Assembly: GCA_030826885.1 (NCBI GenBank)
Contig: JAUUDF010000045.1
Coordinates: 1 to 64,000, forward strand
Direction: 5' to 3'
DNA: 64,000 nt
Source of the DNA: Sulfurovum sp.
Lineage (GTDB): Bacteria; Campylobacterota; Campylobacteria; Campylobacterales; Sulfurovaceae
The translations under genes were made by a program, and so were the position numbers. The notes under the pieces are model-generated. The model did no database searches. It was given only the letters and a program-made list of their open reading frames with translations, and was not told the origin of the DNA. Position 1 is the stretch's first letter. Every line of letters begins with the position of its first letter. This document shows positions 1,234 through 17,805 of the stretch, piece by piece.

Positions 1234-2337
1234 CTATATCTCCCCTTCCATAAAACCTTCAAAGATTCTTGTTACCAGTGCAATGCGTTCCTCGAAACTC
1301 TGTTTGCTTGCGCGTTCGTGGACGGTATGGTCACCGTCACCGTAAGGCCCCCAGCCGTCGAGGGTAGGAACGCCTGCGGAGGCGATGATGTTGGCATCGC
1401 TTACGCCGCCGCGTTTTTCGGTGGGTAGGGTTACTTTGCAGTAGGTTTCAATGTGTTGGATGAAATCTGCCTGTGCTTTGGTGGGCTGCATCACGTCACG
1501 CTGAATGCCTCCCGAGAGGGTCGAGACGGTGCCTTTGACATAGGAGGTGTTGACAATCTCGTCTATGGCGGCGAGTACACGGTCACGCTCATCGGTGGAG
1601 GTGTAGCGCAGTTCGAATGTCAGGTGTGCTTTGGGAGAGATGGTGTTGGCGCCGATGCCGCCTTCGATTTTGCCTACATTGACGGTGGTCTCTTTGGCAA
1701 GGTCTGTAAGTGCTACGAGTTTCTGGAGTTTGACGGCAGCTTCGAGGTTGGCATCGGCCCCCTTGTCGTAGTGGTTCCCCGCATGCGCGGCAATGCCTTC
1801 GATGTCGATAAAAAAGGTACCTACCCCCTTGCGGCCGATGACCACCTCATTGTGCACCCCGGCAGCTTCAAAGACCATACAGCAGTCGTACTCCTCTGCC
1901 AGTTTTTCCGAAAGATGCTTGCTGTCATCACTGCCGGTCTCTTCGTCACTGACGAGCAGAAAATCGATGTTGTAGATCTTCCCACAGTTCTCATGAATGT
2001 TGCGCAGGGCGCAGAGTGCAACATAATTGCCGCCTTTCATGTCGCAGACACCGGGGCCGTAGACCCATTCGCTGTTTTCTTTGAATGTCTCAAAGGTACC
2101 GGGAGGGAAGACGGTGTCAAGATGGCCCAGAAGCAGCATCTTTCTATCCTCTCTCTGCGGGCTTGTCAGATGGAGATGGTCTCCTATGTTCTCTCTGGGG
2201 TAGCGGGTAAGGGTGTAGCCGATCTGCTCCAGCCAGTAGGCGAAGATCTCCCCATTTTGGTCTACGCCTTCCTTGTTCTTCGTCCATGAGTTGATCTCGA
2301 TGATCTTTTTGAGTTCCGTAAAGTCCATAACCGTCAT
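1234..2337 (-). CDS. M20 family metallopeptidase (glutamate carboxypeptidase-like)
   Basis: LLLGHLDTVFPPGTF, GPGVCDMKGGNYVAL, SDEETGS, HAGNHYDKGADAN motifs. Confidence 0.88.
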   Translation of the reverse strand: MTVMDFTELKKIIEINSWTKNKEGVDQNGEIFAYWLEQIGYTLTRYPRENIGDHLHLTSPQREDRKMLLLGHLDTVFPPGTFETFKENSEWVYGPGVCDMKGGNYVALCALRNIHENCGKIYNIDFLLVSDEETGSDDSKHLSEKLAEEYDCCMVFEAAGVHNEVVIGRKGVGTFFIDIEGIAAHAGNHYDKGADANLEAAVKLQKLVALTDLAKETTVNVGKIEGGIGANTISPKAHLTFELRYTSTDERDRVLAAIDEIVNTSYVKGTVSTLSGGIQRDVMQPTKAQADFIQHIETYCKVTLPTEKRGGVSDANIIASAGVPTLDGWGPYGDGDHTVHERASKQSFEERIALVTRIFEGFMEGEI

Positions 2338-2442
2338 CCCTTCCTATTGTCTGTTATAATCTTGTTATATTTAAATTATGTTCTGAAGATATTTTAATAA
2401 AATATAGTAAAATAGGAGATTAAAAAAAGCAAGGACAGCTGT

Positions 2443-3363
2443 ATGGGAAGAAAAATAGGTATGTGGATGTACCAGAACGGTGGTGGTGACAAAATTGAAG
2501 AGAAGATGGTCAAAAAGCTCAAAGAGCGGGGCATAGAGAGTGTTACGGGTCTGAATCTCAGACATGCCATTGCGAAGAAAGGGCACATCTACCATGGCAA
2601 ACGCAAAGTAGACAAACTCGATCTGTTTTTCTCCTACAATGCAGGTGAACAGACACAGTATCAGGTCTTTTTGTATCAGGCACTTTCACGTGTTATTCCT
2701 ACAATAAACTCCTATGAAGCATTTGCGCTGACCGAGGACAAGTTTCAAACCTCCTATCTGCTGCAGCAGCACGGTGTAGCTACATCAGAGTTTCAACTCT
2801 GTCACAGGGACGATACGGAGCATCTAAACCGCAATATGAAAAAGTGGAAGAAAATGGTTTACAAGCCTACAGACGGATGGGGCGGTGTCGGACTGACCAA
2901 AATAGAGAGTCAGGAGACACTGGATATGCTGCTGCCTTTCCTTAACCAGACGGATCTTCGCTTTTTCTATGTAGAGAAGTTCGTCAAATATGACAACACA
3001 GACTACCGTGTCGATGTGGTCGATGGCAAGTTCGTAGGGTGTTATGGCAGAAAGGCGAGCAAGAGAGACTGGCGTACCAACGTAACCAGCGGAGGATCGG
3101 TCTTTAAACGTGAGCCCAATGACGAGGTGGTCAACCTGGCACTCAAAGCGGCAAAAGTATGCGGTGCGGACATTGCGGGGGTAGATATTATCTACGATCA
3201 GGAGCGTGAGGAATATGTCGTGCTGGAGGTGAACGGTATTCCGGCATTCGCTACGCCTGAGCAGGAGAAGATGGGGTTGGACTTTAATGAGCTTAAAATA
3301 GACCTGATTGTCGATCTTGTAGACCGTAAAACAAAAAAGAAAAATAAAAAGGAAACCAAATGA
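2443..3363 (+). CDS. RimK-like ATP-grasp ligase
   Basis: VYKPTDGWGGVGL ... VEKFVKYDNTDYRVDVVDGKFVGCYGRKA ... ADIAGVDIIYDQEREEYVVLEVNGIPAF. Confidence 0.85.
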   Translation: MGRKIGMWMYQNGGGDKIEEKMVKKLKERGIESVTGLNLRHAIAKKGHIYHGKRKVDKLDLFFSYNAGEQTQYQVFLYQALSRVIPTINSYEAFALTEDKFQTSYLLQQHGVATSEFQLCHRDDTEHLNRNMKKWKKMVYKPTDGWGGVGLTKIESQETLDMLLPFLNQTDLRFFYVEKFVKYDNTDYRVDVVDGKFVGCYGRKASKRDWRTNVTSGGSVFKREPNDEVVNLALKAAKVCGADIAGVDIIYDQEREEYVVLEVNGIPAFATPEQEKMGLDFNELKIDLIVDLVDRKTKKKNKKETK

Positions 3364-4793
3364 GTAAAAAAAAGACAAAACAGAAACTGCCCAGACTCGG
3401 ACTGCTCTATCTTGACCATGTACTGCGCTTTTTTGACAAAAGCAACTTCAAAGGGTGGCCTGACAAAATAGAAACAGTCGTATACCATTGGAAAAACGAC
3501 AAAGAGCGTTTCATCAAAGAGGTAAAACGCAAGAAGATCGATGTACTCATTGGGAACATCCCGGCAACGGCATATGAGACCTTCCGTGAAATTGCAAGGG
3601 AACTGCCGCATGTGCAGTTTATTCCGTCGCTCGATACGCAGTTTTCCAACAAATCCAAAGAGAATGTCACCCGCTTTGCATGGAAATATGACATTCCTGT
3701 TCCGAAAACCTATATTTTTTACGACCATGAGAAAGCGGAACGTTTTATCGACTCGACGACATTTCCAAAGATCATCAAAAAAAGTTACGGCCCGTCCAAC
3801 TATGGCGGTTACTTTGTACACAAGGTAGACTCGGCGCAGGAGGCACACAATCTGTTGGCGCAAAAGAAATACCACCCGGTCTATATGCAGGATTTCGTTC
3901 CGATGCAGGCCGATGTACGTGTCATGCTGATTGGCCACAAACCTGTCTGTGCCTTCTGGAGACGTCCGCCTGAGGGCGAGTGGCTGACAAACACCTCACA
4001 GGGTGGAAGCATCGACTACATGAACGTGCCCAAAGAGCTGCTCGACCTTGCCGTGAAGGTCTCAAAGGCTGCCAATGCCGAATACTGGGCGTGTGATGTG
4101 GCAGTGGGAGAAGACGGCAAATACCGCATTCTTGAATGTGCGACCGCATTTGCCGCATTCCCGTACATCCGTGACTGGATCGGACAGTACCTGATGTGGA
4201 AGTTCTCGGATGGAAGGTTCCCGTTGCCGAACATGCCGCTGTACAACTGGGAAGAGCTGGGTAAGATGGACTCCAGTGTACTGCGTACCCTGCGCTACAT
4301 TACATTCGGGCGCTATACACCAAGTTATGACGGTGCCTACTTCCTCGACTCCAAAACGAAGGTGACAGAGGAGGGTGAAGTGTACCTGCATGAGCTGGAT
4401 GAACGCTACCCGGTGCTTAACACCTATACCCGCACAAAAGAGGAGTGGCCAAGCGAGAAGTGGAACTTTCAGGACAACTACGGCAAGACAGTAAGAAAGG
4501 TGCATGCTCAAAGCAACCCTGAGTACAAAGAGGAGGGCGATGAGTCTTCCGAAGCCCAGGAGCAGGAGCAGATGATAGAACTTTCCGAAAAAAAGGTAAA
4601 AAAGCTCTTGACTTCGGTTGAAGGGATCGGCAAGAAAAAGGCAGAAAAAATAATGGACAAGTTCGATACGGCAGAACTGGTGCATGCACTCGAAACCGCG
4701 CCGGAGAAGATAGGCGAAGAGCTGTCGTGGTTTAAGAAGAAGTTTACCAAAAGACTGCTCAAAGCCTGGGAAGCATTTAAAGAAAAACTGTAG
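3360..4793 (+). CDS. Second ATP-grasp ligase with C-terminal helix-hairpin-helix-like domain
   Basis: IIKKSYGPSNYGGYFVHKV ... DVRVMLIGHKPVCAFWRRP ... ACDVAVGEDGKYRILECATAF; C-term LLTSVEGIGKKKAEKIMDKFDTAELVHAL resembles HhH; overlaps previous stop by 4 bp. Confidence 0.8.
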   Translation: MSKKKTKQKLPRLGLLYLDHVLRFFDKSNFKGWPDKIETVVYHWKNDKERFIKEVKRKKIDVLIGNIPATAYETFREIARELPHVQFIPSLDTQFSNKSKENVTRFAWKYDIPVPKTYIFYDHEKAERFIDSTTFPKIIKKSYGPSNYGGYFVHKVDSAQEAHNLLAQKKYHPVYMQDFVPMQADVRVMLIGHKPVCAFWRRPPEGEWLTNTSQGGSIDYMNVPKELLDLAVKVSKAANAEYWACDVAVGEDGKYRILECATAFAAFPYIRDWIGQYLMWKFSDGRFPLPNMPLYNWEELGKMDSSVLRTLRYITFGRYTPSYDGAYFLDSKTKVTEEGEVYLHELDERYPVLNTYTRTKEEWPSEKWNFQDNYGKTVRKVHAQSNPEYKEEGDESSEAQEQEQMIELSEKKVKKLLTSVEGIGKKKAEKIMDKFDTAELVHALETAPEKIGEELSWFKKKFTKRLLKAWEAFKEKL

Positions 4794-4823
4794 CATCATA
4801 GGCGGTCTGTTAACGGATTTTGG

Positions 4824-4829
4824 TATAAT
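4824..4829 (+). promoter_or_regulatory. Extended -10 promoter (TGGTATAAT) upstream of the M14 gene
   Basis: TGnTATAAT match about 35 bp before the start codon. Confidence 0.45.
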
Positions 4830-4863
4830 GCCGCCTCAAAAAAAGCGGTAAAAGGCGTAAGCG

Positions 4864-7443
4864 ATGAAAAACCAGTATATGTCCTACCAGGAGAGTCTTG
4901 AATTCCTGCATAAGATGGAAAAAGAGTTTCCTGATCTGATTGAAGTAATCAAGATCGGTACGACCTATGAAGGGCGTGACATTGTGTTGGCAAAGATTTC
5001 CGAAAATGTGGAAAAAGCCGATGAAAAACCGGCGATGCTCTATACTGGAACCATCCATGCCCGTGAGTGGATCGGCCATGAACTTGCTCTGGAGTTCATC
5101 AAGTATGTTGCCACAAACCGGCATGTCAATCCGGTACTTGAAAAAGCGCTGGAAGAGTCGACACTCTACATGGTTCCCTGTCTTAACCCAGACGGTTACG
5201 AGTACTCCCGAAAACACTTTTCTTTTTGGCGAAAAAACCGGAGAAAAAACTATGACGGTACCTACGGTGTCGATTTGAACCGTAACTTCTCCATAGGATT
5301 CAAGAAAATCAAAGACACTACATCCAATGTCTATGGCGGCGAAGAGCCCTTTTCAGAGGCAGAAACACGTGCCATCAAGGAGTTTGTCGACGCTCATGAG
5401 AACATTACCATAGCGCTGGATTACCATTCACAGGGGAATGTCTTCTTCCCTGCACACAAGTTCAAACATGAAGCCGAAATTGACGGTACAGACATGAATG
5501 TGATCGCGGCAAATATGAACGATGAATTTGAAAAGGTAACCGGAAGAAAGTACGGTATTCACCGCGGCAAGCCGCCTGCAGCGCTCATTAGCGGAAGCGG
5601 ACGGGAATACTACTACTCCAGGGGGATCAAAGCGCTTGTTGTCGAGGTAGGTACGAAGAACATTCCCGACTATATGAAGAGTATGAGCAGTAGCATCCAT
5701 GAGAACATTCCCGCACTTGTACGTACCTTTTCGGAGGTGGTCAACTACTCGGAGTATGCGCCAAGAAGGGTTGACGAGTTTATGGTCGAGTCTGTAGAGG
5801 ATACAAGCGTAACACTGGCATGGAAGTATGAAAAACGTGACGATATATTTTTCGAAATCTACCGCAGTACCAAGGACAAAGATGCTTGTAACGAGCGTAC
5901 GAGGGTAGGTATTACAGGAGAACAGAGTTTTAAAGACACCGACCTTGAAAGTTCGACGACATACCACTATACGATACGTGCAGTGAGCAAAAAAAGCGGT
6001 TACGCATCGGCGTTCGCACCGGTGGTCAAGGCACGTACCGCACTGGCTGAAGATGAATTTTTCCGTTTTCTCTTCGCTACCAAGGAGGGAACGGGCTATG
6101 TGGGACAGTACACACAGGAGAGCAACCGTTCACACTTCGGGCTAAACTCGCTCTTTGTCGGTATTAATAAACGTAAAGGCATTTGTGATGCGGTGGTCAG
6201 CTTTGACCTGAGCAGTCTGCCGGAGAATGCCGTCATTAAATCGGCACGGTTCTATCTCTATCCGATGAACCGTGTCGGTGCGAAGATCGAAAAGTTCGGG
6301 CAGTGGGACTTGAGCCTTCTGGAGCACGGCAGTTTCAGTGAGATCAGTGACTTTGACGAGATAGAGAATGCCAGAGCAAAAGGGATCATCGGTCAGGCGA
6401 TCAAGTCACGTCAGCTGACACAGGGCATCTGGAACTTCTGGGAGTTCTCGCAAAGAGAGTGTCAGATGCTTCAGGAAGAGATAGCCAACAAACAGGCAGT
6501 TTTCCGTATTGACGGGCCGAAGTATCTGCCTGACGGAGAAGACAGCCAGATGATGCAGTTTGACATCGGTTACGGCAAGTTCGGTGGCGGTATCCACTAC
6601 CGTCCGATGCTTGATGTCAAATATACAATCGAGAACGAAAAGATCAAACTGCCTATGCAGACCTTTGCTACTATCAGTAAAGAGGGTATTGAGGAGCAGA
6701 CACTCAAAAGCGGTTTCGATGCTGAGGGTGAAAAGGTCTATGGATATCTCAACTTCGACCTTTCACAGCTTCCTGAACACGACAAGACAATGATCATCCA
6801 GTGTGCGTTACGCATTCGTAACAAAAATATATTTAAAAAGAAGTCTGATGTGCGTTTTTATGTAGAACTGGTTGAACTTGATGAGGTTGGTAGCTACGTA
6901 GATATCAAAAACCGTGAGAAGATCGAATATATCGGCTACGAAGTGGCTGAGTCCGATTTGAATGCCAAAGAGTATCAGTACTTTAATTTCGATACACTCT
7001 CCAGACAGGTACTCGATCAGATGCATCAGGAGGGCAAGCCACTCAAACTGGTCATCAAGCCGACATCTGCACTGGGAGTCAAACAGCGTATTATCGAATG
7101 GATGGACGATGCAGAACTGGTAGTCAAGTATATTCCAAAGCGCCGCAATCCGCCCGCTTCGGTCAAAAACCTGAAAATAAGCAAAGAGAAAAGTATGATC
7201 AAGCTCAGTTGGGACAAAGTGCTCGATGAGAATGTCAAAGGCTATTATGTGGTACGTAACAGCTTCCATCCGCCACGTCATTTCATGGACGGTGTGAAGC
7301 TCTATGGTGGACAAGATACATGGACCTATGACAACTTTGCCTCTTTCGATACGGAAAAGTATTATGCGGTCTTTGCCTATGATGAAGTGCCGAACTTTTC
7401 GGAAGCAACAGTGGTACGGTATGATCCTTTGGAGAAGTACTAA
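4864..7443 (+). CDS. M14 zinc carboxypeptidase with Fn3 and two DNRLRE-like domains
   Basis: HAREWIGHE, NPDGYEYS, DLNRNF, ALDYHSQG, VVEVGT catalytic/zinc motifs; Fn3-like DTSVTLAWKYEKRDDIFFEIYRS...; two DNRLRE-like regions (SFDLSSLPENAVIKSARFYLY; NFDLSQLPEHDKTMIIQCALRI); C-term Fn3-like; no evident signal peptide. Confidence 0.85.
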   Translation: MKNQYMSYQESLEFLHKMEKEFPDLIEVIKIGTTYEGRDIVLAKISENVEKADEKPAMLYTGTIHAREWIGHELALEFIKYVATNRHVNPVLEKALEESTLYMVPCLNPDGYEYSRKHFSFWRKNRRKNYDGTYGVDLNRNFSIGFKKIKDTTSNVYGGEEPFSEAETRAIKEFVDAHENITIALDYHSQGNVFFPAHKFKHEAEIDGTDMNVIAANMNDEFEKVTGRKYGIHRGKPPAALISGSGREYYYSRGIKALVVEVGTKNIPDYMKSMSSSIHENIPALVRTFSEVVNYSEYAPRRVDEFMVESVEDTSVTLAWKYEKRDDIFFEIYRSTKDKDACNERTRVGITGEQSFKDTDLESSTTYHYTIRAVSKKSGYASAFAPVVKARTALAEDEFFRFLFATKEGTGYVGQYTQESNRSHFGLNSLFVGINKRKGICDAVVSFDLSSLPENAVIKSARFYLYPMNRVGAKIEKFGQWDLSLLEHGSFSEISDFDEIENARAKGIIGQAIKSRQLTQGIWNFWEFSQRECQMLQEEIANKQAVFRIDGPKYLPDGEDSQMMQFDIGYGKFGGGIHYRPMLDVKYTIENEKIKLPMQTFATISKEGIEEQTLKSGFDAEGEKVYGYLNFDLSQLPEHDKTMIIQCALRIRNKNIFKKKSDVRFYVELVELDEVGSYVDIKNREKIEYIGYEVAESDLNAKEYQYFNFDTLSRQVLDQMHQEGKPLKLVIKPTSALGVKQRIIEWMDDAELVVKYIPKRRNPPASVKNLKISKEKSMIKLSWDKVLDENVKGYYVVRNSFHPPRHFMDGVKLYGGQDTWTYDNFASFDTEKYYAVFAYDEVPNFSEATVVRYDPLEKY

Positions 7444-7576
7444 CGATACGGAAAGTTCATGTCCGTCAAAGAGGGATCAAAAAAATAAATTTAAATTAAG
7501 AAATAAAATAATTTTATTTTAAATAATAGTAGTGTACACTATATTAAGAGCCCGGATAGTAAGGAGGGTGTACACT

Positions 7577-8616
7577 ATGCAAGAGAAAAACTACGAAGCG
7601 CTCATTGCTGAGAACAAGGCGTTAAAGCGCCTCATATTCCAGTTCAAGAATCTACTTGACTCCATTCCCGATCCGGTTTTTATGAAAGATGAAAAACTGC
7701 GGTGGATCTACGGAAACCCTGTCATACTCAACCTTTACAGCATTGACAAAGACAACTATGTAGGCAAAACCGAAGATCAGCTGCTTCCTGAAGAGTTCGC
7801 GGCCTCATGCATGGAGAGTGACCGTCTGGCTGTAGAGCGGGGCGGCATCAGTAAATCTGAAGAGCGCGCTCGGGATGCTGACGGGAAAATTCATTTTATG
7901 AAGTTTTCAAGGTTCCCTCCTATGACCATAAGACAGGAGAATTTACCGGACTCATTGGCATTGGCCGTGATATTACAGAGCGCAAAGAAGCGCTTGAAGC
8001 ACTTGAACAGGAGAACAGAAGAAGCAAAGAGAACGAGATTCAGCTTGCGCATCTTAGTAAAACACTAGAAGAGCAGGTTTGGCTGCGTACACGCGAGCTT
8101 GAACGTCAGAAACAGCAGGCTGAAACACTCTCCTATACCGACATGCTTACCGGTCTGAACAATCGGCGTGCCTTTTTCGAAAAAAGCGCTGTCATCGATG
8201 TCAACTCACGCAACAGAGACTGTGGCTATGCTGTCATTATTATCGACATCGATTACTTCAAAAAGATTAATGATGCCCATGGCCATGCAGTTGGGGATGA
8301 AGTACTTAAACTGTTGGGAAGGTGTCTTAAGAGCCATCTTCGGGCAACAGACATTGAAGGGCGCATTGGCGGTGAAGAGTTTGCTGTTACACTGGTTGAC
8401 ACCACGCTTGAACAGGCAAAGATGATTGCAGAAAAACTCTGTGCGGCCATACGAAAGCTCTCACTGAAGGCCTATCCGCATCTTAAAATCACTGTCAGCT
8501 GCGGGGTGAGTGTCTTTACACGCGCAAGCAAGCGTTTTGCCGATATTCTCGAAAAAGCAGACGAGGCACTCTACAGGGCAAAAAGTGCAGGAAGGGACTG
8601 TGTGGTTGCCATTTGA
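7577..8616 (+). pseudogene. PAS-GGDEF diguanylate cyclase interrupted by a single-base frameshift
   Basis: PAS in frame 1 (LLDSIPDPVFMKDEKLRWIYGN); after ~7909 the PAS end plus linker (YDHKTGEFTGLIGIGRDITERKEALEALEQE...) and GGDEF (RATDIEGRIGGEEF) are in another frame. Confidence 0.82.
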
Positions 8617-11204: not shown

Positions 11205-11318
11205 TACTATAAAATATAAACTCTCTGTGTTTCTTAAATATTGAAGTGCATTTACATTCTATTAAATATTTTATCTTATAATTGTTATTGCATACAATAA
11301 ATTTTTAAGGAGTACACC

Positions 11319-11708
11319 ATGCATATGAAAGAGAGAATAGAGAGTATTATCAAAGATGACCTGCAAAAAGAGAACCTTGGGCATGTAACACTGCATCAGA
11401 CCCGTGAGCTGTTAATGGATGTAGGTGCCATACTGCTCGATGTCAGACCCCCTGCAAAAGTTACCGGAGAGAACGCCGAAGAAGCAGGCATTGCGAATGC
11501 ATACTACACACCGTATCCTGAATTTGCGGAATATCTCGATGTTCTTCCAAAGTCTCATGCAACACCGATAGTCGTTGCCTGTCTGAAAGGGTGGTTCGCC
11601 AACCGTGTAATGGGGTATCTTGAATTTATGGGCTATAATAATGTCTATGTACTCGATACCAGCATAGAGGACCTTATTGAAGTGCATCATGCACACGCAG
11701 ACAAATAA
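11319..11708 (+). CDS. Rhodanese-like domain protein
   Basis: GAILLDVRPPAKVTGENAEEAGIANAYYTPYPEF... VVACLKGWFANRVMGYLEFMGYNNVYVL. Confidence 0.8.
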   Translation: MHMKERIESIIKDDLQKENLGHVTLHQTRELLMDVGAILLDVRPPAKVTGENAEEAGIANAYYTPYPEFAEYLDVLPKSHATPIVVACLKGWFANRVMGYLEFMGYNNVYVLDTSIEDLIEVHHAHADK

Positions 11709-11727
11709 CGCTTCTTCTATTTTAAAA

Positions 11728-11744
11728 GGGTGGGTTTCCCACCC
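11728..11744 (+). terminator. GGGTGGG-TTT-CCCACCC hairpin after the rhodanese gene
   Basis: Direct reading; 20 bp downstream of stop. Confidence 0.5.
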
Positions 11745-11953
11745 CTGACACACTGTATTATTTCGTTATAAACTAACTTCTTAACACTACTATCATCAGG
11801 GTACCTCTAAAACGCAATTTTTCAGTCAATACTACAGCACGACAAGTGCCAGTCTGGTGAGAAATGGGAATGGACTACAATGGTTGTTTGTGTAGGAAAA
11901 GCAAAAAAGTAGTAGGGGCAGGGAAACCTGCCAAAGAAGAGAAGTGTCGTCTG

Positions 11954-13216
11954 CTACAGCAGCCCTGCCAGTGCTGCGAGCAGAACAGGCGGTGTGATGA
12001 CCAGTCCGACTTTCATATACTCCCCCCAGCCGATTTTGACACCTTTTTGTGAGAGGACATGCAGCCAGAGCAGGGTGGCGAGCGAACCGATAGGGGTCAT
12101 TTTGGGCCCGAGGTTACAGCCGAGGATATTGGCATAGACGAGCGCTTCGTTGCCGGCATAGCCGATCTTGTCGATGGCGATATCCATGATCATGATCGTA
12201 GGCATGTTGTTCATCACTGCCGAGATCACTGCTGCGAGGAAGCCTGTACCGATGATGGCGATATGTTCACCGGAGGCTTTCAGTGCGAGGAGGATTTCGG
12301 AGAGGTAGTCTGTCAGTCCTGCGTTTTTCAGTCCGTAGACCACGACATAGAGTCCGATACTGAACCATACGACCTGCCACGGTGCGGCTTTGATGGTCAT
12401 GAGTGGTTTGGTAGCCTTATAGTGGTTGGCGATGAGCAGAAACACCAGTGCCCCGCCCAGTGCGAAGATCGAGATGGGCAGATGGTAGATATCGCCGATG
12501 AAGTATCCGACCATCAGCAGTGCGAGGAACCACCAGCTGAGTCTGAACATGGTCTGGTTTTTGATCACCGATTCGGGTGTGGCGAGGTTCTCTATCTCGA
12601 GCCGGGCAGGGATGCTTTTGCGAAAGAAGAGCCAGAGTATGGCCAGTGATGCGACGATGCTGAGCAGGTTGGGCCAAAACATATGCTGTGCATATTCCCA
12701 GAATCCAATGTTGAAGTAGTCTGCAGTGACGATGTTGGTCAGGTTGGAGATGACCAGTGGGTTGGAGGCGCTGTCACCGATGAACCCGCCTGCCATGAGG
12801 AAAGCAAACATCGCCGCGGGTTTCATATTGAGATGCTTCATCTTGGCAAGTAGAATGGGTGTAAGGATCAGCGCCGCACCGTCATTGGCGAAGAAGGCTG
12901 CCACCACCGCACCGAGCAGCAAAATATAGACAAACATCAGATGCCCGTTGCCCCGACTGAGTCTGACCATTTTCAGTGCCGCCCACTCAAAAAAGCCGAT
13001 CTCATCGAGCACCATTGAAAGCAGGATGATCCCGATGAATGCCAGGGTCGCATCCCAGACGATCCCCGTCACTGTCACGACATCATCGAAGCTGACGACA
13101 CCAAGTGCGAGGGCGACGATCGCTCCGATGACGGCAGTGGTACCTATCTGCAGCCCCTTTGGCTGCCAGATAACAAAAATAAGTGTTGCCAAAAAGAGGA
13201 GAGAGGCGGTGATCAT
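11954..13216 (-). CDS. arsB: ArsB/NhaD-type arsenite permease
   Basis: Polytopic; FFANDGAALILTPILLAKM, NNMPTIMIMDIAI, ANILGCNLGPKMTPIGSLATLLWL; next to arsC/arsR. Confidence 0.88.
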   Translation of the reverse strand: MITASLLFLATLIFVIWQPKGLQIGTTAVIGAIVALALGVVSFDDVVTVTGIVWDATLAFIGIILLSMVLDEIGFFEWAALKMVRLSRGNGHLMFVYILLLGAVVAAFFANDGAALILTPILLAKMKHLNMKPAAMFAFLMAGGFIGDSASNPLVISNLTNIVTADYFNIGFWEYAQHMFWPNLLSIVASLAILWLFFRKSIPARLEIENLATPESVIKNQTMFRLSWWFLALLMVGYFIGDIYHLPISIFALGGALVFLLIANHYKATKPLMTIKAAPWQVVWFSIGLYVVVYGLKNAGLTDYLSEILLALKASGEHIAIIGTGFLAAVISAVMNNMPTIMIMDIAIDKIGYAGNEALVYANILGCNLGPKMTPIGSLATLLWLHVLSQKGVKIGWGEYMKVGLVITPPVLLAALAGLL

Positions 13217-13620
13217 GATGCAGCCAGTGCTTCTTTTATTTTTGGCAAGAGTACCGATTCGATCTCTTCGTAGGTTTTCTCAAACGCTTCGTAGCCTTTG
13301 CCGTCGGGGTCTTCGAAGCCTACGTGGATCTTGGGTACGGGCTTGGGGAACATGGGGCAGGTCTCGTTGGCGTGGTCACAGACGGTGACGACAAGGTCAT
13401 AGTTGTTGTCGATGACCGTATCGAGTGTCTTGGAGTGGTAGCGATCCTGCCAGATGCCTTTTTCTTCGAGCAGTTTTTTGGCGTTGGGGTTGACTTTTCC
13501 GGATGCCTTGACACCGGAGCTGTCTGCTTCGATACCGTCAAGTTTGGCATTGACAAGCGCTTCGGCGATGATACTGCGGCAGCTGTTTCCAGTGCAGAGG
13601 ATGAGGACTTTTTTGGACAT
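13213..13620 (-). CDS. arsC: Arsenate reductase, LMW protein-tyrosine-phosphatase type
   Basis: VLILCTGNSCRSIIAEALVN; CDHANETCPMFP. Confidence 0.9.
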   Translation of the reverse strand: MSKKVLILCTGNSCRSIIAEALVNAKLDGIEADSSGVKASGKVNPNAKKLLEEKGIWQDRYHSKTLDTVIDNNYDLVVTVCDHANETCPMFPKPVPKIHVGFEDPDGKGYEAFEKTYEEIESVLLPKIKEALAAS

Positions 13621-13650
13621 AACAGGCTCCTAAATAGTTAATGATGCGGA

Positions 13651-13679
13651 AGTATAGCAAAACGGATAATTTATATCAA
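13651..13679 (-). promoter_or_regulatory. Minus-strand promoter for arsC-arsB (TTGATA-N17-TATACT)
   Basis: -35 complement at 13674-13679, -10 complement at 13651-13656, 17-bp spacer. Confidence 0.6.
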
Positions 13680-13690
13680 GATATCTTGAT
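13675..13690. promoter_or_regulatory. Likely ArsR operator, perfect 16-bp palindrome ATCAAGATATCTTGAT
   Basis: Perfect dyad overlapping the -35 of the arsC promoter; ATCAA-N6-TTGAT form resembles ArsR/SmtB-type operators. Confidence 0.7.
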
Positions 13691-13711
13691 GTATTGGTTA
13701 CCAAATTGTTA

Positions 13712-14035
13712 TCAAGTCGCACAGCGCTGTGTGAGGAGAGGGATCTCCAGTTCCAAATACCCGATCTCTGTCAAGATATCCTGTCTGAACTGGTCAAGCG
13801 GAGAACGGATGGCATAGTATGCCCAGCGCCCTTTGCGCTCTACGCGGAGGAAGCCCGCCTCTTTGAGGATCTTGAGGTGGCGGGAGATGCGTGACTGGAT
13901 CATCCCGAATGCCGATTCGATATCGCAAACGCAGACAGCTCCGTTGATGTCGATAAAACGAAGGATACGCAGTCGTGTCTCATCGTTGACCGCGCCGATG
14001 GTTTGGAGGAAATCTTCTGTTGCACTGTGTGTCAT
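13712..14035 (-). CDS. arsR: ArsR-family transcriptional regulator
   Basis: NDETRLRILRFIDINGAVCVCDIESAFGMIQSRISRHLKILKEAGFLRVERKGRWAYYAI. Confidence 0.9.
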   Translation of the reverse strand: MTHSATEDFLQTIGAVNDETRLRILRFIDINGAVCVCDIESAFGMIQSRISRHLKILKEAGFLRVERKGRWAYYAIRSPLDQFRQDILTEIGYLELEIPLLTQRCAT

Positions 14036-14037
14036 GG

Positions 14038-14973
14038 CTATATCCATTTCTGTTTTTTCAGCCATCTGAAGATCAGCCACGCGATGATGATGTTCAGACC
14101 CCAGATGACGAAGTAGCCGTATTTCCAGTCGAGTTCGGGCATGTTTTTGAAGTTCATGCCGTAGTTTCCGACGATGAAGGTCAGCGGCAGGAAGATCAGG
14201 CTGATCGCCGCGAGGCGCTGCATCGCCTGATTCATCCGGTTGCTCAGGAAACCCATGAGCAGGTTTTGCAGATAGCCGGTGCGGTCGAGATAGGTTTTGG
14301 ATTCGTTGATCAGATAGGAGAGGTGCTCCTTGAGGTCGATGAATTCATATTTGAGCTTTTTTCGCACATTGAGAGAGAAGTGGTTGTAAACTTTGTTGAC
14401 CACATCATTAGACTGTACCGAGAGCTTGGTGATGCGGTTGAGGGTACGGCGTGCGAAATAGAGGTGTTTTTGTATCTCCTTCTCATCGACATCTTCAGCA
14501 AATATCTCATCTTCGATCGCTTCAAGCTTGTCATCGAGCCGGTCAACAATGCCCATGGTGTGATCGACGATGATATCCATGACGGTATAGGTGACATACT
14601 CCAGCGAATCGCGCTCTTCGTAGCGCCGGTAGAGGTGGGAGACGACATTTTTGATGATGTGGTCATTGTGAGAGAGGAAGATGAATTTGTCCTGTGTGAT
14701 AATGACAGTAACATTCTCGTCATGGTAGAGCAGGTCATCCTCCTCGTCACGTACAAAGTACTTCAGGATGATGAGTCTGAAGTTTTTACTCTGCTCAAAG
14801 GTAATGGACTGATCTTCGTTGTGGATGTCTTCGAGGAAACTCTCTGGAAAGTGGTGCTCTTCGAGCCACTGGATGATGAGCGGGTTGTCAACATGGGTGA
14901 AGATGATCTGCTTCTGCCCCTCTTCAAGCGCTATATTGTCCTGATAGTGGAGCTTGTCGGAGAGAAGATACAT
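14038..14973 (-). CDS. corA: CorA-family Mg/Co transporter
   Basis: C-terminal IVGNYGMNFKNMPELDWKYGYFVIWGL (GMN motif). Confidence 0.9.
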   Translation of the reverse strand: MYLLSDKLHYQDNIALEEGQKQIIFTHVDNPLIIQWLEEHHFPESFLEDIHNEDQSITFEQSKNFRLIILKYFVRDEEDDLLYHDENVTVIITQDKFIFLSHNDHIIKNVVSHLYRRYEERDSLEYVTYTVMDIIVDHTMGIVDRLDDKLEAIEDEIFAEDVDEKEIQKHLYFARRTLNRITKLSVQSNDVVNKVYNHFSLNVRKKLKYEFIDLKEHLSYLINESKTYLDRTGYLQNLLMGFLSNRMNQAMQRLAAISLIFLPLTFIVGNYGMNFKNMPELDWKYGYFVIWGLNIIIAWLIFRWLKKQKWI

Positions 14974-15112
14974 CTATGACCCTTTGTTTTGTGTTGCATT
15001 CTATGACGTAAGTATACACTAACCTTGCCGTGATTTTCCACCCAGAGAGCAGGTTTGTGCACAATTTACATGGAGCAGATGCTATAATTTGCCAAAGAAA
15101 AAGGAGTCCACC

Positions 15113-15604
15113 ATGTTTACACTCAAACCCCAGACAAGTGAAGAGGGCTGCTCGACAGGCTGCTGCACCCCGCAGCCCAGAGGCAAAGAGGCATGTCCCG
15201 GATGTGGCGCAGAGACTAAAGGGGTACTGGACAAGACACTTTCGCACCTGCTGACCGATGCTGCCAAAGCGAGCCTCTCATGCCTGGACGGCTTTCACTA
15301 CTGCAAGACACCCTCCTGTGAGATAGTCTATTTCCGAGTGGATGAGACACTCACACAAGATGACCTCACCGTCACCGTCGGTCTCAAAGAGGGTGCAAGC
15401 CCCGCAACGGTCTGCTACTGTTTTGACTGGACAAAAGAGAAGATCGCCGAAGAGATCGCCCGCACAGGTAAAACCACCGCACTCGAGGACATCAAAGCAA
15501 AGATGGAAAACCCGGGCTGCTCCTGTGAGACCCTCAACCCCAGCGGTGCATGCTGTCTGGGAGATGTGGGGAAGGTGATCAAGGAAATTGAAACAACTTT
15601 TTAG
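15113..15604 (+). CDS. CopZ-like Cys-rich metallochaperone (no HMA domain seen)
   Basis: CSTGCCTPQ, CPGCGAETKGV, TVCYCFDWTKEKIAEEIARTG, NPGCSCETLNPSGACCLGDV. Confidence 0.75.
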   Translation: MFTLKPQTSEEGCSTGCCTPQPRGKEACPGCGAETKGVLDKTLSHLLTDAAKASLSCLDGFHYCKTPSCEIVYFRVDETLTQDDLTVTVGLKEGASPATVCYCFDWTKEKIAEEIARTGKTTALEDIKAKMENPGCSCETLNPSGACCLGDVGKVIKEIETTF

Positions 15605-15629
15605 TGATTGCTTCCCAGAAACCAAGTTG

Positions 15630-15908
15630 TCACCTCCCCGCTGCCCTTTGGGCTGCCATATCTGTTAATTTGACCTGAGTATCCCAGTTTTTGCTTCCTT
15701 CTTTGCTTTCAAGGTAGAGTGCCATGAGCAAAACTGCATTATCACCACTTCTGGCTATTGCCTCAGAGAGACTCTTATTTGACCCAAGAACGGCAATGGC
15801 TTCATTGGATGTTCCTGTGAGTTTTTGGATTTGGCTTTCCGGTGGTGCATAGTAATCAAGGGGATGGGAAGATGTGTGCAGATAGTAGGTCAGAATCAGA
15901 AGAGGCAC
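15630..15908 (-). CDS. Short hypothetical ORF, possibly a gene fragment
   Basis: Open frame continues upstream of the ATG toward the IS21 remnant; no recognised domain. Confidence 0.3.
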   Translation of the reverse strand: MPLLILTYYLHTSSHPLDYYAPPESQIQKLTGTSNEAIAVLGSNKSLSEAIARSGDNAVLLMALYLESKEGSKNWDTQVKLTDMAAQRAAGR

Positions 15909-16038
15909 ATCGTGACTGGCCGATGTCCATGTGCATGAGGAGGCGTTTGGGTAGTGTCAACCTCGGAGTTAAATTAGGCAGTATTTCATGAGTTTTTTTC
16001 ACGAAATGTAACCTCAAGCAACGCGTATATTTTTAGTC

Positions 16039-16201
16039 TTATTTTTGACTCTTTTTAGGTTCAAATTCATAAAGATTAGAACCATTCATTTCTTCCTCCT
16101 TTTTTTCTTTTAATCGGTAAGAATCTCCAAGTATATTTATCACATGAGAATGATGTAAAAGTCTGTCTAAAATAGCAGTAGTTACGACTTTGTCATTAGG
16201 C
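16039..16201 (-). mobile_element. Remnant of IS21-family IstB ATPase C-terminus
   Basis: Reverse strand encodes PNDKVVTTAILDRLLHHSHVINILGDSYRLKEKKEEEMNGSNLYEFEPKKSQK*, matching IstB C-termini; the rest of the IS is absent. Confidence 0.75.
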
Positions 16202-16207
16202 CTCTAT

Positions 16208-17008
16208 CTAACGTTTTTTGTAGATGAGTAAAAACACCCCCAAAAACGCAGCAGAAACAAGAATGATGGAGGCGCCGGAGGTGAGGTCGTAGGTGTAGGA
16301 GAACCAGAGACCTACAAGGGTGAAAAAGGCCGAGAGGGCGCAGGAGATGAGCATCATGCTCCAGAGTGATGCAGAGAGCTTTTCTGCGATGTAAACGGGA
16401 ATGGTCAGCATGGCGATGACCAGAATGAGCCCGACGACCTTGATGGCAATGACTACCGTAAGTGCGGAGAGTACCAGTACAAGGGTGTAGAAAAAGCGTA
16501 CGGGAATACCGCGCAGGCTGGCGTATTCGCTGTCGTAGGAGACGGCAAGGATGGGGCGGTACCAGAAACTGACCGTGACAATGATGACCGCCAGCAGTGC
16601 GCCCATGAAGTAAAGGTCCTGCGTGCTTACTGCGAGAATGGAGCCAAAGAGGTAACTCATGAGGTCAACATTGTAGCCCGGTGTCAGGTCGACAAAAACC
16701 ACCCCGATGGCCATACCCACAGCCCAGATAAGCCCGATGAAGGTATCGGTGCGGTGGCGTTTGTGCAGGGTCAGTGCAGCCACAAGCAGTGCGGCAAGTA
16801 CGGCAAACACGGAGGCACCAAGAAAGATTGGTAGTCCGAAAAAGACCGCCATACCGATGCCGCCGTAGGAGGCATGGGCAATGCCCCCTGCAAGAAAGAC
16901 CATGCGGTTTACCACAATGAGTGAGCCGATAATACCTGCGGCAACGGAGACCAGAAGCCCGGCGATGAGTGCATGCTGTATGAAGGTGAACTGGAGTGCT
17001 TCTATCAT
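16208..17008 (-). CDS. znuB: Zinc/manganese ABC transporter permease
   Basis: ABC-3 permease features: GGIAHASYGGIGMAVF, VDLMSYLFGSIL, HKRHRTDTFIGLIWAVGMAIGVVF. Confidence 0.87.
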   Translation of the reverse strand: MIEALQFTFIQHALIAGLLVSVAAGIIGSLIVVNRMVFLAGGIAHASYGGIGMAVFFGLPIFLGASVFAVLAALLVAALTLHKRHRTDTFIGLIWAVGMAIGVVFVDLTPGYNVDLMSYLFGSILAVSTQDLYFMGALLAVIIVTVSFWYRPILAVSYDSEYASLRGIPVRFFYTLVLVLSALTVVIAIKVVGLILVIAMLTIPVYIAEKLSASLWSMMLISCALSAFFTLVGLWFSYTYDLTSGASIILVSAAFLGVFLLIYKKR

Positions 17009-17805
17009 GGTTTCTCTCTCCATTGTCTCTTTTTGTCGTTTTCTGTGTCGGAGGCACAGCTTTCACAATTCTCCGCTCCGAGCATCTGCAGCAGTTCGAC
17101 TTCACAGAAGTGTCCATCCTGGCCATGGATATGGAACGTTTCACGCTTGTCACTGATGTCATGGAAGGCAAGTTCACGGTTGACGTGTGCCACCTTGTTC
17201 GCATACTCCAGAATGACCGAAATGTCATGGCTGACGACAATGACCGTCATGGTCTGGTTGAGCATTTTGATCAGATCGTAGATCTCTTTTTGTCCTTTGA
17301 CATCGATGCTGGCGGTCGGTTCGTCTAGTATGAGCAGCTTTGGATGCGCACAGAGCGCTCTGGCGATCATGACACGCTGACGCTGCCCGCCGGAGAGATC
17401 ACCGATGCGGTGATGGGCATAGGCATCCATGCCCACCTGTGAGAGTGCGCCCATGGCACAGGCGATCTCCTCTTTGCCGTAGCCAAAAAGCGGTCGTTTG
17501 CTGCCTACATGCCCAATGAGCACCACCTCTATGACTTTGATGGGAAATTCGGTATTGACATTGGTATTTTGGGGAACATAGCCGACACTCTGGCGCATTT
17601 TTGAAGGAGGGTTGCCGAAAATACGGATGCTTCCGCTTTGGGGCTTGAGCAGTCCGAGCATGAGTCTGAGAAGCGTCGATTTTCCGCCGCCGTTGGGACC
17701 GATAATAGCAAGAAAATCGAGCGGATCGACCGAGAGGTTGATGTGTTCGAGTACAGGTTCTTTGTCGTAGGAGAAACTTACATCAGAGATCTCGACGGCT
17801 TTCAT
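17005..17805 (-). CDS. znuC: Zinc ABC transporter ATP-binding protein
   Basis: IGPNGGGKSTLLRLMLGL, LSGGQRQRVMIARAL, LLILDEPTASID. Confidence 0.9.
   Translation of the reverse strand: MKAVEISDVSFSYDKEPVLEHINLSVDPLDFLAIIGPNGGGKSTLLRLMLGLLKPQSGSIRIFGNPPSKMRQSVGYVPQNTNVNTEFPIKVIEVVLIGHVGSKRPLFGYGKEEIACAMGALSQVGMDAYAHHRIGDLSGGQRQRVMIARALCAHPKLLILDEPTASIDVKGQKEIYDLIKMLNQTMTVIVVSHDISVILEYANKVAHVNRELAFHDISDKRETFHIHGQDGHFCEVELLQMLGAENCESCASDTENDKKRQWREKP

Follow-up and report, generated by a model that had tools for sequence, protein, structure and literature searches.

A four-gene cassette of ATP-grasp ligases and metallocarboxypeptidases in Sulfurovum and its relatives, very probably a single system for acidic-residue ligation and removal

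The pairing of ATP-grasp ligases with peptidases is already known from several systems. In eukaryotes, TTLL polyglutamylases are ATP-grasp writers, and the cytosolic carboxypeptidases (CCP, M14B) are the matching erasers, intracellular M14 enzymes with acidic C-termini as their targets. The LysX/ArgX-LysW-LysK pathways combine an ATP-grasp ligase with an M20 hydrolase, and carboxypeptidase G2 (CPG2), which frees C-terminal glutamate, is a stand-alone folate/glutamate hydrolase found outside any ligase cassette. In the RimK/RimB(/RimA) system of Pseudomonas, a RimK-like ATP-grasp writer of ribosomal protein S6 is accompanied by a dedicated peptidase eraser, and RimK can also produce free poly-alpha-glutamate (PMC11957791). 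CCP1 is described in PMC3620535. Here we analyze a four-gene cassette at positions 1234-7443 of a 64,000-nucleotide stretch (hereafter, the window) from Sulfurovum sp., in which two RimK-like ATP-grasp proteins, AG1 and AG2, are encoded together with an M14 and an M20 metallopeptidase. Within the cell, the four genes very probably act as one functional unit through which amide bonds to acidic residues are formed and cleaved. This four-gene combination appears to be undescribed; no description was found in the literature searched, in which the 2009 amidoligase survey of ATP-grasp/peptidase neighbourhoods was not covered.

The cassette lies near the start of a 67.8-kb contig of a 1.65 Mb genome that is 89% complete. 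The M20 metallopeptidase (367 aa) is encoded on the minus strand (1234-2337), and AG1 (306 aa; 2443-3363), AG2 (477 aa; 3360-4793) and the M14 zinc carboxypeptidase (859 aa; 4864-7443) follow on the plus strand. All four open reading frames are intact where the first-pass annotation of this DNA had placed them, and the list of open reading frames agrees with its 4-bp overlap between AG1 and AG2, its 70-bp gap between AG2 and M14, and its divergent gap between M20 and AG1, which is 105 bp. Its family assignments, namely M20, two ATP-grasps and M14-DNRLRE, are likewise borne out by Pfam and NCBIfam matches.

A joint function is indicated by the four genes being kept, lost, and moved together. 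Presence and absence were compared over 249 genomes of the same order, in counts that ignore kinship. AG2 was found in 75 genomes, M14 in 74, the orthologous M20 in 73 and AG1 in 71, with pairwise phi values of 0.91-0.97; 67 genomes have all four genes, and 79 have any of them. The cassette proposed earlier had been made to depend on conserved linkage in relatives, and such linkage is what these values show; recurring in about 70 of 249 genomes and again in Photobacterium, the set goes beyond a chance association. Relatives named in public records comprise Sulfurovum, Sulfurimonas, Nitratifractor, Nitratiruptor, and metagenome-assembled genomes of Arcobacteraceae. Most of the 12 incomplete genomes resemble contig breaks or low-completeness assemblies (G009, G131, G164, G186, G205, and G121); in G009, for example, a 4.2-kb contig holds M20 and AG1 and then stops. 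Three other exceptions look like decay: in G176 only M14 remains, with argG on one side and a gamma-carbonic-anhydrase-like gene on the other (locus L129, 7079-9676), G037 has M20 alone, and G076 has only an AG2 remnant of about 90 codons with stops (L165, 7207-7473) and no other cassette gene. G132, of the same genus as G176, has the full set, so that the two genomes are a natural partial-deletion pair in which M20-AG1-AG2 were apparently lost from G176 at the site that separates argG from M14. The complete set is also retained where it is no longer compact. In G053 and G011 the four genes are spread over different contigs, in G016 AG2 is located away from the other three, and locus L111 has the order AG2-M20-AG1-M14. 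In L116 and L125-L128, M20 is co-directional and is the first gene of a four-gene operon. Both the scattering, relocation, and reordering with full retention and the co-directional operon in other lineages are observations independent of a correction for phylogeny. Among 80 loci, no fifth gene is common to the cassettes, the next commonest cluster being a sensor/GGDEF protein (17/80), and no linked carrier or substrate gene was found.

The full cassette is also present in a marine gammaproteobacterium, Photobacterium sp. DA100 (L162), in the order and orientation of the window, with M20 divergent (11284-12477, minus strand) from AG1 (12567-13559), AG2 (13556-15004) and M14 (15001-17664) on the plus strand, and with 4-bp overlaps at both AG1/AG2 and AG2/M14. 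The median identity between the Photobacterium and the Campylobacterota copies is 50-58%, and the flanking genes, by eye an ABC transporter, GGDEF, AsmA-like, and YebC-like genes, are unrelated. The complete set in equal order and orientation thus indicates that the cassette moves as a four-gene unit, and its transfer is again an observation independent of a correction for phylogeny. Since no dedicated substrate gene moved to Photobacterium, the acceptor must be common to both hosts or made from primary metabolites. Joint retention and loss, together with transfer as a set, make it very probable that the four genes are one system. The Photobacterium copy (11284-17664) lies on a 2.1 Mb replicon labelled as a plasmid, whose gene table in PLSDB is nearly empty, so that the cassette is unannotated in that collection. 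Viral contigs contained no relatives of the cassette, phages giving generic RimK matches only; a phage origin was dropped for this reason, and a role in anti-phage defence was rejected on the same ground and because PADLOC gave no match.

The M14 protein matches Pfam Peptidase_M14 (8e-57) and fn3 (4e-6) as well as the NCBIfam DNRLRE model (3e-11), and the 570 residues beyond its catalytic domain are beta-rich, with the fn3 and DNRLRE-type domains. Its nearest folds are carboxypeptidases T, A, B, and O (CPT, CPA, CPB, and CPO). The canonical zinc and catalytic motifs noted in the first-pass annotation are invariant: H65, E68, R123, N139, R140, H188, and E261 occur in 50/50 cassette M14s, giving the HxxE...H zinc site and the Arg127/Asn-Arg and Glu270 equivalents of the A/B group. 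The protein does not fall into the M14B clade of CCP, as its catalytic domain begins at residue 1 and its nearest solved relatives are CPA, CPB, CPT, and CPO. Residue 255 of this group sets specificity, being hydrophobic in CPA, Asp in CPB, and Arg in CPO, which has acidic specificity (PMC9925722). In the cassette M14, Arg247 (codon 5602-5604, plus strand) takes the place of bovine CPA residue 255, aligning with CPA4 Ile255, the Ile of SSIDW, and it is present in 50/50 cassette sequences; three non-cassette bacterial M14s have Thr, Ile, and Thr at this position, although the third alignment is gapped there. That the cassette M14 is specific for acidic C-termini is therefore a well-founded prediction from sequence. 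Human CPO shares with the cassette M14 this Arg at position 255 (PMC9925722); it is, however, a membrane-associated enzyme of the gut that has no ligase partners, and Tyr248 is replaced in the cassette M14. The earlier suggestion that M14 lacks a signal peptide also held: the N-terminus is not signal-like in any of 67 M14 homologues, where hydropathy over 12 residues peaks at 1.23, whereas two of the three non-cassette M14s clearly have such an N-terminus (2.25 and 2.56). The N-terminal start, MKxQYxSY, is conserved.

The M20 protein (Pfam M20, 2e-21, plus M20_dimer) has CPG2 as its best match and nearest solved relative in the PDB (1cg2, 1e-28), with a poly(aspartic acid) hydrolase among the other matches, and it scores under the cut-off against the NCBIfam glutamate carboxypeptidase model PRK06133 (2e-53). 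H72, D99, E132/E133, E157, and H337 are invariant in a 19-sequence M20 alignment; from the CPG2 alignment and what is known of M20 enzymes, we take them to correspond to the five residues that bind metal (H, D, E, E, H). With fold and ligand positions present, the protein fits the M20/CPG2 group.

Membership of a family with an unrelated known product, which would have told against the first-pass annotation, applies to neither ligase: AG1 and AG2 are RimK/LysX/MptN-like but score under every equivalog cut-off. AG1 (Pfam RimK, 6e-21) matches the NCBIfam models for MptN (142 bits) and the RimK subfamily (TIGR00768, 133.4 bits where the cut-off is 143.4). Its E-x-N motif is complete (E262, N264) and its catalytic residues are invariant in 50/50 sequences, and it can be classified as a RimK-like ATP-grasp amide ligase with E-x-N, marginally under the curated score. 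AG2 (Pfam RimK, 1e-16) is nearest to LysX/ArgX/RimK by profile and fold, and its RimK-subfamily score is 81 against 143 bits. It retains K140, R187, R201, N211, D246, and E259 but carries E259-C-A261 in place of E-x-N. The metal-binding Asn is absent from 50/50 AG2 sequences, all of which have A261, and the profile alignment to AG1 shows no Asn there either; this makes the activity of AG2 uncertain. Besides this missing Asn, the first-pass annotation had not included a C-terminal helix-hairpin-helix (HhH) domain of AG2 (aa 409-477; 4584-4793, plus strand), which gives weak HHH_5/H2TH matches in the window copy and is confident in the structure model, with a predicted local distance difference test score (pLDDT) of about 87. 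Such a domain is usual in AG2, and in the AG2 proteins of L125-L128 two stretches match HHH_3 at 4e-27 to 3e-18. HhH domains often bind DNA non-specifically, and the presence of one on AG2 leads us to lean toward a macromolecular acceptor. A possible unusual conservation of AG2 was also considered and dropped, as its within-family identity of 71-77% is similar to that of AG1 and M14 and falls far short of the 90% for ArgG.

The Arg at CPA position 255 and the CPG2-like M20 make ligation and removal specifically of acidic residues likely. The reading that we tentatively prefer, at a probability of roughly 0.45, is a cytoplasmic module that tags a macromolecule, rather than a free metabolite, with an acidic residue, most likely glutamate. 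AG1 would be the best candidate ligase, and AG2 would be either a second ligase or a regulatory or target-recognition subunit, the HhH tail of which docks on the macromolecule. M14 would act as the eraser that trims C-terminal acidic residues, and M20 would cleave either the final glutamyl conjugate or the one released, giving back the free amino acid. The acceptor would already be present in both Campylobacterota and Photobacterium, a nucleic-acid-associated or other protein being the favored class. Glutamate as the residue, the cycle of addition and removal, the role of AG2, and the macromolecular acceptor are what we infer from these data. In a narrower form, which we consider rather unlikely, AG2 would be an HhH targeting subunit and AG1 the catalyst for reversible glutamylation of a DNA- or RNA-associated protein or of a nucleic acid, with an intracellular, acidic-specific M14 plus the M20 as erasers. 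The general proposal made earlier, that the locus could add amino acids and remove them, is partly supported: linkage, the M14 without a signal-like N-terminus, the ligase families, the Arg at the specificity position, and the CPG2-like M20 speak for it at the level of sequence, and the missing Asn of AG2 does not.

Several points weigh against macromolecular tagging. AG2 without its normally conserved metal ligand may be inactive, and its structure model as a whole is weak, with a predicted template modelling score (pTM) of 0.42. It is chiefly the HhH domain that suggests a macromolecular acceptor, and the 381-aa AG2 of L119 lacks it. In M14, the equivalent of CPA Tyr248 is replaced and variable (K/A/H/G), and pLDDT around the active site is below 50 at residues 122-130, 133-159, 190-204, 234-246, and 260-273. 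With Tyr248 replaced and the AlphaFold model unreliable near the pocket, acidic specificity is a prediction and not a result. Domains of the DNRLRE and fn3 kinds are typically found in secreted proteins. Moreover, the co-occurrence counts carry no correction for phylogeny, and M14 alone is kept in G176 and M20 alone in G037.

The most serious competitor, possible though less probable than the tagging of a macromolecule, is that AG1 and AG2 build an acidic di- or oligopeptide or a cofactor glutamate tail, which M14 and M20 degrade or trim; the product would serve as a chelator, an osmolyte, a nitrogen reserve, or a cofactor tail. Comparable products are N-acetylaspartylglutamate and beta-citrylglutamate made by the mammalian RIMKL enzymes, the poly-alpha-glutamate of RimK, and the tails added by MptN and CofF. 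That the best NCBIfam match of AG1 is MptN, a cofactor glutamate ligase, and that M20 resembles a folate hydrolase agree with such a pathway, as does the patchy distribution of the cassette within families; no substrate gene accompanies the set, and a self-contained amino-acid pathway would suit four-gene transfer. Against this, an HhH domain and a 570-aa beta-rich carboxypeptidase extension are unusual for small-molecule enzymes, and no transporter or regulator is linked to the cassette. It is improbable that the peptidases recycle acidic peptides while the neighbouring ligases serve functions of their own: M14 and M20 can be catabolic by themselves and occasionally occur alone (G176, G037), but the four-way co-occurrence, the retention when unlinked, the translational coupling, and the transfer as a unit are all at odds with it.

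Comparison with the described systems leaves two further readings, both less probable still. ArgX and LysX are the solved structures whose folds come closest to AG2, and the combination of an ATP-grasp with an M20 hydrolase is that of LysX and LysK, so that the ligases might act on a small amino-group carrier protein from which M20 releases the product. This we regard as very unlikely, as LysW was found in 0/15 cassette genomes with control genomes positive, the ground on which the LysW pathway was rejected; the kinase, the reductase, and the aminotransferase are not among the linked genes of the 80 loci, M20 is far under the LysK cut-off, and M14 has no counterpart in those pathways. Least probable of all is polyglutamylation of S6 with a metallopeptidase as the eraser, for which RimK offers a homologous ligase and RimB a bacterial precedent of an eraser (PMC11957791). 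RimB is, however, a retropepsin-like aspartic protease serving a single ligase, whereas the cassette has M14 and M20 peptidases and two ATP-grasps; the RimB family (PF05618) is present in 3/15 cassette genomes and absent from the other 12, and RimB was rejected as the usual eraser. S6 itself is not a plausible acceptor, for its C-termini are variable and unsuited in the cassette hosts: several cassette genomes lack an acidic end, and the end ...SDEAAKKAN of G132 is identical in G176, which lost the ligases. The TTLL/CCP pair remains similar to the cassette in having an ATP-grasp writer and an intracellular M14 eraser, but the cassette ligases are RimK/LysX-like and not TTL, its M14 enzyme is alignable in the catalytic domain with CPA, CPB, and CPT and has fn3/DNRLRE domains besides, and an M20 partner is added.

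Between M20 and AG1, a divergent-promoter element, GATATTTTAnTAAAATATnGTAAAAT (2388-2413), contains an 8-bp inverted repeat with a 1-nt spacer. An exact copy is found in 10 of 53 intergenic regions of the cassette, and 27 contain it when up to 4 mismatches are allowed, against 0 for the reversed control; in the 1.65 Mb genome it is single-copy at up to 2 mismatches, with 0 expected in the window. No Rfam family, riboswitch or other RNA, matched anywhere in the window. In L040, L041, and L054, the M20-AG1 gap holds about 220-270 additional bases, by eye inverted-repeat-like, and these insertions resemble a small non-coding mobile element. Elsewhere in the window, LVIVD beta-propeller repeats fused to bacterial TSP3 repeats are encoded close to the contig start (519-1190), in a protein that is probably surface-exposed. 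Downstream of the cassette lies a PAS-GGDEF diguanylate cyclase gene (7532-8616) with an apparent frameshift split near 7900; PAS is in one frame and GGDEF in another, and by eye the frames join into one protein. Three minus-strand genes at 11954-14080, for a transporter, a low-molecular-weight-phosphatase-like reductase, and an ArsR-like regulator, appear by eye to be an arsenic-type cluster.

If the cassette is a writer/eraser pair, it would represent bacterial glutamylation with an M14 carboxypeptidase as the eraser, in chemolithotrophs abundant in vents and sulfidic waters, and a DNA- or RNA-associated target, if true, would make it a prokaryotic counterpart of the writing and erasing known from tubulin. 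If a metabolite is the product instead, the cassette would be a previously undescribed pathway to an acidic peptide or a cofactor tail, equipped with its own turnover enzymes.

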